From Bradyrhizobium sp. AZCC 2262 (GTDB taxonomy: Bacteria > Pseudomonadota > Alphaproteobacteria > Rhizobiales > Xanthobacteraceae): 64,000 nt of DNA. Under the pieces are notes generated by a model that saw nothing but the letters and a program-made list of their open reading frames with translations, was not told the DNA's origin and made no database searches. Position numbers and translations under genes: made by a program. This document shows positions 7,221 to 28,605 of the stretch, piece after piece (position 1 is the stretch's first letter; every line of letters begins with the position of its first letter). Location: positions 4,588,001 to 4,652,000 of the forward strand of contig NZ_JAZHRT010000001.1 of assembly GCF_036924535.1 (NCBI RefSeq), given 5' to 3'.

Positions 7221-7294
7221 GATCGTAGCGACTCTTTTGTTTAGACGCGTTTTCTTCACGCGAACCGGCTTCCACTTCGCTCGAAAACGCTTTA
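7221..7294. repeat. Recurrent intergenic element abutting herA-like gene
   Basis: Read on the minus strand this stretch contains AAGCGTTTTCGAGCGAAGTG, CCGGTTCGCGTGAAGAAAAC and GCGTCTAAACAAAAG, which I recall as a common intergenic motif in Bradyrhizobium genomes. It overlaps the TAA stop of the HerA-like gene and fills most of the gap to the GT87-like gene. Identification as a repeat family is from memory; no second copy is present in this window. Confidence 0.45.
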
Positions 7295-8923
7295 CCGCCG
7301 CAGCAAGCCGCCGAGCGCGCCGCGCACCAGCGCACGCCCAACCGAGCCGCCGAGCGATCCGCCAACTGCTTTGCCGAGATCGGCAGCGACACCACCGATG
7401 ACCTTGTTGGTGACAGAACGCGTAACGTCTCGCGCAATCACCTGGCCGGTCGACATCCTGCCACGCTTGACGTTGGTGCCGAAAATCGTGCCGACGATCG
7501 AACCGATCTGCCCGAGAATTCCGCCGCCGGCGGCACCAGCGCCGCCATCCGTTCCGTCCGCGGGCGCCGCTGTTCCGGCCACGCGCTTCTGCAGCATCTC
7601 ATAGGCGGATTCGGCGTCGATCGCGGTGTCGTATTTGCCCTTGACCGGGCTCTTGTTCATGATCGCCTTGCGTTCTTCCGGCGTGATCGGCCCGATCCGC
7701 GCCGTCGGCGGCCGGATCATGACGCGCTCGACCATGGTCGGCGTACCGCCGCCTTCGAGGAACGACACCAACGCTTCGCCCTTGCCGAGTTCCATGATGA
7801 CGCGGGCGGTGTCGAGCTTCGGGTTCGGCCGGAAGGTCTGCGCGGCGGCATTTACCGCCTTCTGGTCGCGCGGCGTGAAGGCGCGCAACGCGTGCTGCAC
7901 GCGGTTGCCCAACTGGGCCAGCACCTTGTCCGGCACGTCGATCGGGTTTTGCGTGACGAAATAGACGCCGACACCCTTGGAACGGATCAGGCGCACCACC
8001 TGCTCGATCTTGTCCATCAGCGCCTTCGGCGCATCGTTGAACAACAGATGCGCCTCGTCGAAGAAGAACACCAGTTTCGGCTTCGGCAGGTCGCCGGCTT
8101 CCGGCAGTTCCTCAAACAGTTCCGATAGCATCCACAACAGGAAGGTGGCGTAGAGCCTGGGGCTCTGCATCAGCTTGTCCGCGACCAGGATGTTAACCAT
8201 TCCCCGGCCATCGCTGTCGGTCTTCATGAAATCCTTCAGGGTGAGCGCCGGCTCGCCGAAGAATTTCGTTCCGCCCTGGTTTTCCAGCACCAGAAGCTGG
8301 CGCTGAATGGTGCCGACAGTCGCCTTGCTGACATTGCCAAAACTCTGCGCAGCCTTTCGAATCTCGGCCAACGGATCTTCCTCGGCATCCGGCCCCTTCT
8401 TGCGGCCATCGGGAACGATCGCATCCAACAGCGACCGCAGATCCTTCATGTCGATCAGCGTCAAGCCGTTTTCATCCGCCACGCGGAATGCGACATTGAG
8501 CACGCCTTCCTGCACGTCGTTGAGATCGAGCATTCGCGACAGCAATAGCGGTCCCATTTCCGTAACCGTGGCGCGAACCGGATGGCCCTGCTCGCCGAAT
8601 ACGTCCCAAAACACCGTCGAGAACTGATCGGGCTGGAAATTAAGGCCCATCTCTCCGGCGCGCTTGAGGATGAAGTCCTTGGCTTCGCCGACTTCGGAGA
8701 TTCCGGACAGGTCGCCCTTGATATCGGACGCGAACACGGGAACACCGGCGCGAGCAAAGCCCTCCGCCATCACCTGCAGCGACACGGTCTTGCCGGTCCC
8801 GGTCGCTCCGGTGACAAGGCCATGCCGATTGGCAAGTGCAAGCGTCAGCCAGGCCGTCTGTTCGCCCTTACCAATGAAAATCTTCTCGTCGGTATCGGCA
8901 ATCTTGTTATCGGAGGTGGCCAT
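7292..8923 (-). CDS. HerA-like helicase / DUF853 ATPase
   Basis: A 543-residue P-loop ATPase of the HerA-FtsK superfamily, DUF853 branch. The Walker A motif GATGTGKT is at residues 39-46, Walker B is KLVFFFDEAHLLF, and the arginine-rich C-terminal region has the usual glycine-rich tail (GSLGGSVGRALVRGALGGLL). The open frame extends far upstream, but the ATG at 8923 is chosen because it has a GAGGCG ribosome-binding site and begins the conserved part (MATSDNKIADTDEKIFIG). In this family the ATPase is often free-standing; no NurA nuclease gene is adjacent, so a role in DNA end processing is only a family inference. Confidence 0.9.
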   Translation of the reverse strand: MATSDNKIADTDEKIFIGKGEQTAWLTLALANRHGLVTGATGTGKTVSLQVMAEGFARAGVPVFASDIKGDLSGISEVGEAKDFILKRAGEMGLNFQPDQFSTVFWDVFGEQGHPVRATVTEMGPLLLSRMLDLNDVQEGVLNVAFRVADENGLTLIDMKDLRSLLDAIVPDGRKKGPDAEEDPLAEIRKAAQSFGNVSKATVGTIQRQLLVLENQGGTKFFGEPALTLKDFMKTDSDGRGMVNILVADKLMQSPRLYATFLLWMLSELFEELPEAGDLPKPKLVFFFDEAHLLFNDAPKALMDKIEQVVRLIRSKGVGVYFVTQNPIDVPDKVLAQLGNRVQHALRAFTPRDQKAVNAAAQTFRPNPKLDTARVIMELGKGEALVSFLEGGGTPTMVERVMIRPPTARIGPITPEERKAIMNKSPVKGKYDTAIDAESAYEMLQKRVAGTAAPADGTDGGAGAAGGGILGQIGSIVGTIFGTNVKRGRMSTGQVIARDVTRSVTNKVIGGVAADLGKAVGGSLGGSVGRALVRGALGGLLRR

Positions 8924-24333: not shown

Positions 24334-25704
24334 ATGCATGTCAGCCGACGCAATCTCATTGGAACATCCGCCGCCGGCGTCGCGGGTGCGCTGGCGATCT
24401 CGCCGGATGCCGCGCGCGCGGCGCCCCTCACCTCCACGCTCGGCCGCGACGTCACGCAGTATGGCGTGCGTCCCGGCAGCCCCGACGATCAAACCGCAAA
24501 ACTGCAGCGCGCGATCGACGAAGCCGCGCGCGCACAAGCGCCGCTGGCGTTGCCGCCGGGAATCTATCGCGCCGGCATGCTTCGCCTGCAAAGCGGCACG
24601 CAACTCGTCGGCGTACGCGGCGCGACCAGGCTCATATTCAATGGCGGCGCCTCGATGCTGCAGAGCGAAGGTGCCAACAATATCGGCCTGACCGGCATCA
24701 CCTTCGACGGCGGCGGCATTGCGCTGCCGGAGCGGCGCGGTCTCGTGCACTGCCTCGGCGGCCGCGACGTCCGTATCGTCGACTGCGAAATATCGGGCAG
24801 CGGCGGCAACGGCATCTGGCTCGAGCAGGTCTCGGGCGACATTTCCGGCAACATCTTCAGGAAGATCGCGACCACGGCGGTGGTCTCGTTCGATGCGCTG
24901 GGCCTGATCGTCTCGCGCAACACCATCACCGACACCAACGACAACGGCATCGAGATCCTGCGCACGGCGATCGGCGATGACGGCACGCTCGTTCTCGACA
25001 ACCGCATCGAGGACATCAAGGCCGGCCCCGGCGGCTCCGGCCAATATGGCAACGCCATCAATGCATTCCGCGCCGGCAATGTGATCGTGCGCGGCAACCG
25101 CATCAGGAATTGCGACTACTCCGCGGTGCGCGGCAATTCAGCCTCCAACATCCACATCACGGACAACAGCGTCAGCAATGTCCGCGAGGTCGCGCTCTAT
25201 TCGGAGTTTTCGTTCGAGGGTGCCGTCATCGCCAACAACACCGTCGATGGCGCGGCCGTCGGCGTCTCCGTGTGCAATTTCAACGAAGGCGGCCGCATCG
25301 CCGTCGTGCAGGGCAACATCATCCGCAATCTGCTGCCGAAGCGGCCGATCGGCACCGCGCCCGATGACGACGCCGGGATCGGCATCTATGTCGAGGCGGA
25401 TTCATCCGTGACCGGCAACGTGATCGAAAACGCGCCTTCGTTCGGCATCATTGCCGGTTGGGGCAAGTATCTCCGCGATGTCGCGATCACCGGCAATGTG
25501 ATCCGCAACGCCTTCGTCGGTGTCGGCGTGTCGGTAATGCCCGGCGCCGGCACGGCGCTGGTCAACAACAACATGATTTCGGAAACCCCGCGCGGCGCCG
25601 TGGTCGGGCTCGATCACGCCCGTACCATCACGACCGATCTTTCAGCCGAAGGCGCCCAACGCTACGCGCAGGTGGTGGTCGGGGGCAACGCGGTAAGGCG
25701 CTAG
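24334..25704 (+). CDS. Tat-exported right-handed beta-helix repeat protein (TIGR03808-type)
   Basis: A 456-residue protein that begins with a twin-arginine signal (VSRRNLIGTSAAGVAGALA) and cleavage near AARA. The rest consists of parallel beta-helix repeats with recurring N-x-I and N-G-I turns (GNIFRKI, SRNTITDTNDNGIEIL, GNRIRNCDYSAVRG, GNVIENAPSFGIIAGW). This matches the family described as twin-arginine translocated repeat proteins, whose function is unknown; beta-helix relatives bind or cleave polysaccharides. The ATG at 24334 is preferred to 24259 because the twin-arginine motif follows at once. Its usual partner, the TIGR03809-type gene, is 2.4 kb away beyond an inserted cassette. Confidence 0.85.
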   Translation: MHVSRRNLIGTSAAGVAGALAISPDAARAAPLTSTLGRDVTQYGVRPGSPDDQTAKLQRAIDEAARAQAPLALPPGIYRAGMLRLQSGTQLVGVRGATRLIFNGGASMLQSEGANNIGLTGITFDGGGIALPERRGLVHCLGGRDVRIVDCEISGSGGNGIWLEQVSGDISGNIFRKIATTAVVSFDALGLIVSRNTITDTNDNGIEILRTAIGDDGTLVLDNRIEDIKAGPGGSGQYGNAINAFRAGNVIVRGNRIRNCDYSAVRGNSASNIHITDNSVSNVREVALYSEFSFEGAVIANNTVDGAAVGVSVCNFNEGGRIAVVQGNIIRNLLPKRPIGTAPDDDAGIGIYVEADSSVTGNVIENAPSFGIIAGWGKYLRDVAITGNVIRNAFVGVGVSVMPGAGTALVNNNMISETPRGAVVGLDHARTITTDLSAEGAQRYAQVVVGGNAVRR

Positions 25705-25909
25705 GTCGCATCCCTCTCGGCCCGCCAAACCTGCCGTTTTTACGCTATCGCACGACCCGCCGTCCGGTAGCCGCCGGTGCTACGATGAAACACGTTGGGG
25801 GCAGCGGAGCATCCGCCCTCCTCGCTTCACCCCCAGTTCGAAGTCTCGACGGACTGGCAGATTCGGAGCGACGTTGAATCAATGTGCGGCGCGGCTTATT
25901 CTCTGGTCC
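25705..25909. other. Intergenic region before the GIY-YIG gene
   Basis: 205 bases. A hairpin GGGGG...CCCCC encloses 25794-25831 and is followed by AGTTCGAAGTC, which gives a superficial T-arm look, but no full cloverleaf forms. This is probably the left junction of the inserted cassette. Confidence 0.4.
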
Positions 25910-26731
25910 ATGGTCAAGCTATTCGACGCCGACAGCATCCGAGCGGAGTTACGGGAACATGGACCGTTTTACGTATACGTCCTATGCCGCCCATGTGGAG
26001 AGCCGTTCTATGTCGGAAAGGGCGTGAAGCTCCGTGTTCTTCAGCATGAAGCAGAGGCACGAACAACTAGAATACTGACTTATAAGCTGAATCTAATCCG
26101 TAGCCTCCACCATCAAGGCCAACACATCGCATATCGCGTCGACAGTTCGTTCGCTGACGAAGCAGGGGCGTTGGCCCGTGAGCGTGCGCTAATAACCGAA
26201 ATTGGCCGTCACGATTTGAAGCTCGGGCCTCTTACGAATCAAACCGATGGAGGCGAAGGAACTTCCAATCCGTCCGAAGAAAGTCGTCAGCGACGGCGCG
26301 ATTCACTTTGGGGGGATGCGAACGATCCAGAGCGTCAAATCGCCAATAGCTGGTTTCAGAAGCTTACGCCGGTGAAGTCGGTCCCTATTAAGCCGGTTGC
26401 AACCTTCACGCGGGCGGCAGGACTTTGGAAGAATGATGACACGATAGGCATGAAACCGAGGCAGGCAGGGGCTATCGTGGCGAGTGCCATCGCCAACCGG
26501 GTTTTACTTGAACCCGATTGCCTATTGCCTCGGCGGCTAGAAATCGAAAGGGTTGAATACATCATTGAGAACGGCGTTGGGCGGGACATGATTTCGAACG
26601 GCATGATCACGCTGCACGACGCCACAGTAACAAGGGAAGTCCTGAGACTCACTCAGCTAGGTTACGCCTTCGTCGTAAAGGCGTTTGGGGCAGCAGCCTT
26701 GCTCGACGCGGGCGTCCTCACTCCCGATTAG
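25910..26731 (+). CDS. GIY-YIG endonuclease-domain protein (LEM-3-like)
   Basis: A 273-residue protein whose first 120 residues form a complete GIY-YIG nuclease: YVYVL (Tyr21, Tyr23), PFYVGKG (33-38), catalytic Arg42, the metal-binding Glu91 in ALARERALITEIG, and Asn110 in PLTNQTDGGEGT. The TDGGEG ending is typical of the LEM-3-like branch. The C-terminal 150 residues match nothing I know; they include two conserved-looking helices and an IERVEYIIENGVGRDMIS segment. A TTG at 25874 could add 12 residues. The DNA is visibly less GC-rich than its neighbours and uses codons such as TTA, CTA and AGA, suggesting transfer. Confidence 0.82.
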   Translation: MVKLFDADSIRAELREHGPFYVYVLCRPCGEPFYVGKGVKLRVLQHEAEARTTRILTYKLNLIRSLHHQGQHIAYRVDSSFADEAGALARERALITEIGRHDLKLGPLTNQTDGGEGTSNPSEESRQRRRDSLWGDANDPERQIANSWFQKLTPVKSVPIKPVATFTRAAGLWKNDDTIGMKPRQAGAIVASAIANRVLLEPDCLLPRRLEIERVEYIIENGVGRDMISNGMITLHDATVTREVLRLTQLGYAFVVKAFGAAALLDAGVLTPD

Positions 26732-26777
26732 GCTTGTCTAATATCGTGCTGAGAGGAATTCGGAGCAACCTCAAAGG

Positions 26778-26817
26778 GCTATAGCGTAGAGGCAGTGCTT
26801 CATCGGTGAGGCCCGCC
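26778..26817. repeat. Direct repeat copy 1 flanking the UDG-like gene
   Basis: GCTATAGCGTAGA, three bases, AGTGCT, then GGCCCGCC-like sequence (AGGCCCGCC). A second copy with a few differences is at 28039-28084 in the same orientation. The GTG used as start of the UDG-like gene falls inside this copy. Confidence 0.7.
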
Positions 26818-28011
26818 AAATGCCACCGATTTTTCGATATCCTGGGATACAACCGCCGACAGCCAGCATTGGGAGTTTTCGTGTACCGTATCAATACTGA
26901 GACAGGCGAAGTCCTAGTTCCTCACGTCTTCGAAGACGGCACCTATGGTGCAGCCGATCCTGACCTCGGTAAACAACGACACCACATCGCGAACAGAGTT
27001 ATCGCTGCAAGCATCGAGGAACTTAAGGAATATCTCCGCAGAGGCTGGCCGGTTTGGATGTCTATCCGTGGTACTAGGGACCGCCGTCTGATTTCGAAAG
27101 GTATCGTCGATTCCGATCCGCCACAGGACGGACCCGCCCCTGGAGACGACCAGCAGGCCAAGGGTTTCGCCGCACAGCCTCTCGCCCAAATGATAGAAAG
27201 GAAACCCGTAGAGTTTGTTCCGATAGCGCCGGCGACCAAACCAGTCGCTGGCGGAGTGACCGAATATCTGCAGATTATCTCAGCCATGTCAGAGGCCGAG
27301 GTAGTCGCCGAAACAGACAATCCTCGTAGGCTCCTTATGGGGACCCACGTATACAAGACAAAGCGCCTAGATATCGTCTACGCTCCGTTTGACCACATGA
27401 ATACCCGGGCAGATATCGTCATCGTCGGCATCACGCCAGGTAAGCAGCAGATGCGCGAGGCCATCGAGGAGGCCCGCCGGGCGATGATGCTCGGTCTGTC
27501 GGACGCAGAGGTCCTTGCGCGCGCGAAAGTCCATGCGAGCTTCGCAGGGACCATGCGGACCAACCTCGTGAAGCTGATGGATGGCGTGGGTCTGAACGTA
27601 CTGCTAGGCATTGCCTCGACGGCGAGCCTCTGGGGAGGCGACAACCATCGCGCCCATTTCACCTCCGCGCTAAGGTACCCGACGTTCGTCAATGGCGAGA
27701 ACTATAGCCGATCGCCTGACATGAATGGCGTGCCCTTCTTGTTCGATCGGTCAAAGAACTGGCTCGGGGAAGAACTCTTACTGTTCCCAGACGCAGTGAT
27801 CGTCCCTATGGGGGACATGGTCTCGGAGGCACTGACCCGCATTGGACGAAAAATGGACATTGCCAACGATCGGATTCTCGCCGGAATGCCCCATGCAAGC
27901 GGGGCAAATAACGGGCCGATTGCCAAATTCCTCGGGGACGCTGAGGCAGAGGACGAATGGCGCCTTCGCTTCGTGGGCATCACGGCCAAGGTACGAAGCC
28001 TTTGCGGCTGA
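26806..28011 (+). CDS. Uracil-DNA-glycosylase-like superfamily protein
   Basis: A 401-residue protein of no family I can name, but residues 195-400 follow the UDG fold: RADIVIVGITPGKQQ (motif A position, GITPG at 208-212), FAGTMRTNLVKLMDGVGLN, HFTSALRYPTF, LLLFPDAVIVPMGD, and GMPHASGANNGPIAKFLG, where HAS at 363-365 sits at the HPS position of UDG motif B. The first 130 residues form a separate alpha/beta domain (VYRINTETGEVL, EELKEYLRRGWPVWM), joined by a proline-rich linker. The start is uncertain: GTG 26806 lies in the direct repeat and GTG 26881 is an alternative. The gene follows the GIY-YIG gene by 74 bases on the same strand. Confidence 0.6.
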   Translation: MRPAKCHRFFDILGYNRRQPALGVFVYRINTETGEVLVPHVFEDGTYGAADPDLGKQRHHIANRVIAASIEELKEYLRRGWPVWMSIRGTRDRRLISKGIVDSDPPQDGPAPGDDQQAKGFAAQPLAQMIERKPVEFVPIAPATKPVAGGVTEYLQIISAMSEAEVVAETDNPRRLLMGTHVYKTKRLDIVYAPFDHMNTRADIVIVGITPGKQQMREAIEEARRAMMLGLSDAEVLARAKVHASFAGTMRTNLVKLMDGVGLNVLLGIASTASLWGGDNHRAHFTSALRYPTFVNGENYSRSPDMNGVPFLFDRSKNWLGEELLLFPDAVIVPMGDMVSEALTRIGRKMDIANDRILAGMPHASGANNGPIAKFLGDAEAEDEWRLRFVGITAKVRSLCG

Positions 28012-28038
28012 GTTGCAGCCGTTCGGTAATATCATAGT

Positions 28039-28084
28039 GCTATGGCGTAGACGTAGTGCTCATCATCGTCGTTCGTGGCCCGCC
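28039..28084. repeat. Direct repeat copy 2 flanking the UDG-like gene
   Basis: GCTATGGCGTAGA, three bases, AGTGCT, a short variable part and GGCCCGCC; compare 26778-26817. It ends exactly where the minus-strand TIGR03809-type gene ends. Distance between copies is about 1.26 kb. Confidence 0.7.
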
Positions 28085-28605
28085 TACAGCATGTTGCGCA
28101 GCAGCGGATAGCGTTCCTTCATCACGTTGAGATCGAGCGCCGGCAACGGCATATCGTCCAGCGCCGGCGCATCCGGCACGGACGGCGTCTTGTCCGCAAC
28201 GGCGAGCTGATTTTCCAACGCGGCCAGAACATCAGCGGAAATATCGCGACGCGGCGCGGCAGCGATCGGCGGCGCGGCCACAATCGGCGCGGGCGGCGGC
28301 TTCAGGTGCACAACCGGCTGACGGAAGCCCGTATCGCGCGGCAGCGGCGTCGTTCGCCGGCGGCCAAGCCAGGTCAGGTCGATCGCGGTGTTTTCCAGCG
28401 AGGCTTCGCGGTTCAACAGGTCACGCCAGGTTTCGACCGCGGCCTTGGCCTCCTGGATGTTTTCAAGAAATTCGAGTTCAGTGTGATAGCGGCGCCAGCG
28501 CCCGCTCTCGAACAGTTCGGTGAGATGTTCCAGCCGTTGCTCGGCAAGGTTGCACCAGCGCGCAACGATGTTGCGGCCGCGCGCCACGTCTGCAGGAAGT
28601 GCCAT
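28084..28605 (-). CDS. TIGR03809-type family protein
   Basis: A 173-residue cytoplasmic-looking protein. The N-terminal half is helical and charged (LAEQRLEHLTELFESGRW, YHTELEFLENIQEAKAAVE, TWRDLL), followed by a proline- and alanine-rich linker and a short C-terminal tail (DLNVMKERYPLLRNML). I recognise the pattern as the TIGR03809 family, which is found next to TIGR03808 beta-helix genes in this bacterial group; the function is unknown. Here the two are separated by the GIY-YIG/UDG-like insert. Confidence 0.7.
   Translation of the reverse strand: MALPADVARGRNIVARWCNLAEQRLEHLTELFESGRWRRYHTELEFLENIQEAKAAVETWRDLLNREASLENTAIDLTWLGRRRTTPLPRDTGFRQPVVHLKPPPAPIVAAPPIAAAPRRDISADVLAALENQLAVADKTPSVPDAPALDDMPLPALDLNVMKERYPLLRNML

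Follow-up and report, generated by a model that had tools for sequence, protein, structure and literature searches.

The stretch of DNA analysed here, a window of 64,000 nucleotides from the genome of the soil bacterium Bradyrhizobium sp. AZCC 2262, carries an insert of two genes on the same strand between the convergent genes for a TIGR03808 family TAT-translocated repeat protein (positions 24337–25704, + strand; NCBIfam E = 7.5e-261) and a TIGR03809 family protein (28084–28605, − strand; NCBIfam E = 1.5e-47). Gene 1 (25910–26731, + strand) encodes a GIY-YIG nuclease, and gene 2 (26881–28011, + strand), 149 bp further on, encodes a protein with a uracil-DNA glycosylase (UDG) fold. The GC content of the two genes is 54.8% and 57.6%, compared with ∼65% in the flanking genes, and their third-position GC is also lower (0.57 and 0.65, compared with 0.76–0.83). 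A preliminary description of this DNA had read it as a foreign insert that splits a gene pair, and the loci of relatives bear this out. We compared the TIGR03808/TIGR03809 loci of 19 relatives (L004–L022), 18 of which hold both genes (TIGR03808 was not found in L018). The stop-to-stop gap is 0–148 bp in 15 of these loci compared with 2,379 bp in the window, and larger gaps occur in three relatives (553 bp in L021, 741 bp in L017, and 1,197 bp in L011). From these gap lengths, the two genes are close-packed in most relatives and the space between them accepts other inserts in a few. An IS110-family transposase gene lies upstream of TIGR03808 (22566–23729). The sole Rfam-type match, a sub-threshold fluoride riboswitch, falls inside gene 1, and a known RNA element in the insert was rejected on this ground.

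Gene 1 begins at an ATG and encodes 273 amino acids, which the open reading frame (ORF), the motifs and a structure model divide into a GIY-YIG domain and a C-terminal domain without an assigned fold. Tyr21, Tyr23, Arg42, Glu91, and Asn110, from which a complete nuclease had been proposed, are all present, and an alignment of 40 sequences (A2) shows each of them to be invariant or conserved in at least 90%. Among the catalytic residues, Arg42 is at least 90% conserved and Glu91 is invariant. The third-tyrosine motif GIYxY-YIG is formed by Y21xY23 and Y34, which are at least 90% conserved and align with those of CMoRE (PD-T4-3), a GIY-YIG type IV restriction enzyme that depends on 5-hydroxymethylcytosine (5hmC) or its glucosylated form (5ghmC) and acts against phages (PMC12923530; PDB 9U75, 9U7U). 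CMoRE is the nearest solved relative of gene 1 both by sequence and by structure (36% identity over 87 structurally aligned residues), with I-TevI ranking lower, and the two proteins share an N-terminal GIY-YIG domain with the third tyrosine and a two-part layout of similar length. A GIY-YIG domain joined to a modification-sensing domain is also seen in the wH-GIY-YIG endonucleases that depend on N6-methyladenine (PMC11037411).

The neighbourhoods of gene 1 relatives contain 66 genes that match 89 PADLOC models, including cytosine methyltransferase and IetA models; one protein can match many models, so that these are not gene counts, and some of the matches, such as Cas12f, may be TnpB-like genes instead. 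Full-length relatives with defence neighbours are found in L067 and L084. In L067 (4737–7533) and L051 (5129–7997), a DUF4258-like gene, a gene for a 541–551-amino-acid protein (38.7% identical between the two, without a confident family match), and a GIY-YIG nuclease gene form a set, which in L067 lies near cytosine methyltransferase-like and Vsr-like genes. In L065 (7162–9749) and L066 (5257–7805), genes for a methylpurine-DNA glycosylase, a PAD_porph deiminase, and a GIY-YIG nuclease stand in a row (by family scan in L066, by eye in L065), and the nuclease gene of L066 is split by an IS66-looking insertion.

Gene 2 encodes 376 amino acids. The frame is indeed open from a GTG at 26806, the earlier choice of start, but relatives (∼376 amino acids) begin at residue 26 of that ORF, which is the GTG at 26881 and has GGGAG upstream; the upstream start is less likely. 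The N-terminal domain (residues 1–82; 26881–27126) has no family match in the family scans. A stand-alone form of it was found in one protein, and in a Sphingomonas locus (L001) a stretch like it (34% over 61 amino acids) is part of a separate gene just 5′ of a UDG-like gene. After a low-confidence linker (residues 83–122), the UDG-fold domain spans residues 126–376 (27256–28008), as seen in the alignment and in a predicted model with a mean predicted local distance difference test (pLDDT) of 86.3 and a predicted template modelling score (pTM) of 0.68. Its fold is that of SMUG1, TDG, and family 4 UDG, and the sequences GITPG (183–187) and MPHASG (336–341) occupy the UDG motif positions, in agreement with the preliminary description. 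In an alignment of 48 sequences (A1), Thr185, Pro186, Phe221, and Ser262 are invariant and Gly187, Gln190, His338, and Ser340 are at least 90% conserved. The catalytic Asn/Asp of UDG motif A is thus absent, with Thr185 in all 48. UDG families 1–3 have this Asn/Asp and families 4–5 are without it. The window's protein scores 16.8 bits against PF03167, under the Pfam cut-off of 24.3, and 43 of the 48 family members match this profile at E ≤ 0.01. A comparison of the sequence with solved structures, including any solved UDG, gave no match at E ≤ 1, and gene 2 was not found in phage records.

The neighbourhoods of gene 2 relatives are rich in defence genes. At 12 loci of the UDG family, 97 neighbours match 174 PADLOC models at E ≤ 1e-15, compared with no model for 98 control genes. 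Among these neighbours are type IIG restriction proteins (four match the commonest model), Bil (two), and cytosine methyltransferases, and L070 holds both an RT-Toprim gene and a type IIG gene. The defence-island location holds for the relatives; the copy in the window has only gene 1 for company. Chance carriage of an ordinary repair glycosylase could also be argued for gene 2, whose product has a SMUG1/TDG-type fold. This we regard as very unlikely, given the rarity and patchiness of the family, its company of restriction, Bil, and reverse transcriptase genes, its distance in sequence from any solved UDG, and its extra N-terminal domain.

Several relatives have a recurring company of their own. 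In six of 14 distinct loci with a UDG-family gene and no gene 1 (L071/L072 and L081/L085 counted once each; L080's own gene lies outside the listing), a DUF4258-like gene, the UDG-like gene, and a gene for a partner of 293–363 amino acids occur together: L070 (6198–8384), L075 (6675–8731), L079 (6071–8808), L083 (5484–7521), L085 (3381–5386), and L167 (7519–9568). Several of these sets lie near restriction genes, and the L167 partner has a C-terminal helix-turn-helix. BLAST links the partners to one another in a chain in which one match is weak. DUF4258 exceeds the Pfam cut-off only in L067, falls below it in L070, and is absent in L167, the other assignments being by BLAST. The set is a candidate for an uncharacterised defence system of its own.

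Whether genes 1 and 2 belong together was judged from their distribution. Relatives of gene 1 occur in six of 262 genomes of the genus (E ≤ 1e-15) and in four of 385 of the class, and UDG-family relatives of gene 2 in 15 of 265 of the genus (E ≤ 1e-10) and in seven of 397 of the order, the window's own genome being counted each time. The five other genus genomes with gene 1 and the 14 others with the UDG family do not overlap. For families of such rarity, the chance expectation is about 0.3 genomes with both, so that the missing overlap excludes an obligate pair and leaves room for an occasional one. Neither the 265 genus genomes nor the 397 order genomes yielded another full-length gene 2, and a scan of the genome contig gave one locus. 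No second locus with both genes was met among those read (flanks of 1.5 kb for most loci of one set, several kb for others; of the 27 closest listed relatives, P0001–P0027, not all full-length, the surroundings of only P0003, in L050, were read); a 36-residue match in L068 (E = 6e-5) was taken as chance. At the level of listings, no paper on such a pair was found under GIY-YIG, glycosylase, defence, and DUF4258 in combination.

The preliminary description had proposed that the two genes act as one system, in which the glycosylase would make abasic sites at modified bases and the nuclease would cut there. Their common strand, close spacing, and shared insert favour this proposal, as do the DUF4258-like companions found elsewhere in both families and the gene 1 relatives in two genomes (G232 and G035) that adjoin a deiminase gene followed by a methylpurine-DNA glycosylase gene (family scan for L066). 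The families are also so rare that few joint genomes are to be expected. The lack of overlap and of a second joint locus speaks against it, as does the end element that each gene carries (see below), and a DUF1643 neighbour of a gene 1 relative in Bosea, tried as a UDG relative, showed no such relation (probability 1.6%, from a single sequence). A paired system is therefore possible but disfavoured; for lack of co-occurrence we rejected it as the leading explanation and regard it as improbable.

The boundaries of the insert are marked by a short sequence, GGCCCGCC, which occurs seven times on the + strand of the window, three of these being the boundaries of two units. The core at 25719–25726 is the left boundary of unit 1. 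A first copy of an end element of ∼51 bp (26774–26817, + strand), with GGCCCGCC as its tip at 26810–26817, ends unit 1 and starts unit 2, and a second copy (28035–28084, + strand; tip at 28077–28084) forms the chromosomal junction. Within the window, GGCCCGCCAAA is confined to the two left ends, the 25719 core and 26810. The sequences 3′ of genes 1 and 2 gave an alignment score of 27, compared with a maximum of 21 for 1,984 random window pairs, and a 22-base core of the element has two sites in 9.48 Mb (≤2 mismatches), one after each gene. At L050, from another sample, a gene 2 that is 83% identical stands without gene 1 and ends in the same element; it starts close behind a tRNA-Ser (7275–7364), and the similarity to the window begins at the last bases of the tRNA. 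The empty site in relatives is without the element, which for this reason probably came with the genes.

Outside the window, the element is conserved in Rhizobiales in many contexts and sometimes in direct pairs (L192–L207). Its core (≤1 mismatch) occurs at 19 sites in 16 of 254 genomes of the genus, compared with nine sites for a reversed control pattern. A profile search found a second copy 0.7–2.7 kb away in five of 20 distinct loci, all in direct orientation and one weak (L207, E = 2e-4). In L194 and L206 the element adjoins what appears to be the 3′ half of a tRNA, where ARAGORN detects none. In 22 of 25 copies, the reverse strand can be read as an open peptide with an end like EHYVYAIAL or a variant of it. 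Near the copy in genome G265, three relatives share a LysR-like gene, and no match to the element at that place reaches an E-value below 1. On an IMG/VR contig (L189, 4133–6313), genes resembling those for a DNA methyltransferase and a phospholipase D (PLD)-like nuclease, named by eye, are followed by a copy. Rfam gave no match for the two copies in the window, and nothing naming the element was found in the literature on rhizobial repeats and cassettes at the level of listings. The element may mark the end of a recombining unit, or it may be a plain repeat or what is left of a coding sequence.

We favour the explanation that the insert arose from two separate acquisitions, each of a single-gene anti-phage module, which came to lie in tandem at the same short GC-rich target between convergent genes, and put its probability at about 0.6. 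Each gene would be a defence-like gene in its own right and a variant of a recently described kind. Gene 1 is most likely a modification-dependent (type IV) nuclease, in which the C-terminal domain would recognise a modified base and a GIY-YIG domain of the CMoRE/PD-T4-3 kind would cut the DNA. Gene 2 is most likely a Brig-like DNA glycosylase, or a binder of modified bases, with an added N-terminal domain; modified bases in the DNA of an incoming phage would be flipped into its pocket and removed, leaving abasic sites. Brig1 is an alpha-glucosyl-hydroxymethylcytosine DNA glycosylase (PMC11078745), with which gene 2 shares the UDG superfamily, the defence-island location of relatives, and presumably action on the bases of phage DNA; it differs in its extra N-terminal domain, and the likeness was drawn without a Brig sequence comparison. 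Brig3-BapA pairs a 5hmC DNA glycosylase of the same superfamily with a deglucosylase (PMC13160076), and relatives of gene 2 also often have operon partners, although theirs are the DUF4258-like and 293–363-amino-acid proteins. The earlier suggestion that such proteins would suit modified phage DNA is plausible in view of the 5hmC-specific relative of gene 1 and the defence neighbours of gene 2 relatives, while CMoRE, Brig1, and Brig3-BapA have overtaken, as far as the parts are concerned, the accompanying statement that the author knew of no such system. Of the checks proposed there, proximity to defence genes was found for gene 2 relatives, and recurrence of the pair was not found in the genomes searched and the loci read.

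Several observations weigh against this explanation. Neither gene family has a known activity. The negatively charged autoinhibitory loop of most CMoRE members (PMC12923530) is missing from gene 1, which has AEARTTRILT in the stretch aligned with DDDD, and the alignment with CMoRE chains covers model residues 6–109, so that the C-terminal domain is not aligned to the CMoRE sensing domain. In gene 2, Thr185 would stand where Brig3 has its required Asn50, and Gln190 in place of Glu55, if the motif positions correspond; the predicted UDG fold is there in the model, but the best Foldseek match reaches an E-value of only 0.016, with none below 0.001. The 3′ regions of eight other homologues were compared, and only that of L050 resembles the element (none of the seven from gene 1 relatives). 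Copies of the element are found as well on plasmids of Agrobacterium, Aminobacter, Rhizobium, and Sinorhizobium, in the company of ordinary genes and at places where nothing is annotated, and the element forms no stable hairpin (folding z-scores of +0.65 to +2.05 relative to shuffles). With no excess of single-strand folding, an integron gene cassette with attC was rejected. Near an MFS-like gene in genome G172, the one comparable relative (gene at 68% length) keeps a partial copy (E = 1e-5), which argues against a fresh insertion there and is how a plain old repeat would behave. A bacterial gene 1 relative (63%) stands alone between what appear to be murC- and murB-like genes (L064, 6949–7812), without the end element, and three of 15 phage records label the GIY-YIG relative a putative homing endonuclease. 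Gene 1 might accordingly encode a homing endonuclease of the free-standing type, present at the site through its own copying, with gene 2 an unrelated passenger or repair enzyme. We find this improbable, as CMoRE and not I-TevI is the closest solved relative, defence genes neighbour the full-length relatives, and the phage matches span at most 49% of the query, namely the nuclease part.

The explanation by two separate modules can be extended, with low confidence, to a wider class of rhizobial cassettes that lack a recombinase. Such cassettes would carry single defence genes, start with CCGCC, end in the ∼51-bp element tipped with GGCCCGCC, insert at short CCGCC-type cores (including the 3′ end of tRNA-Ser), and stack in tandem, and the CMoRE-like nuclease beside the Brig-like glycosylase would then be an instance of this stacking. 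The cargo at other copies, as named by eye, would include GNAT, BrnA-like, and methyltransferase/PLD-nuclease genes.

If gene 1 and gene 2 act as proposed, the reach of two recent anti-phage principles, modification-dependent cleavage by a GIY-YIG nuclease and base excision by a UDG-fold protein, would include rhizobia, where the proteins have new accessory domains. Should the shared ends prove to be genuine mobility signals, they would also provide a handle for finding more single-gene defence modules outside classical defence islands.
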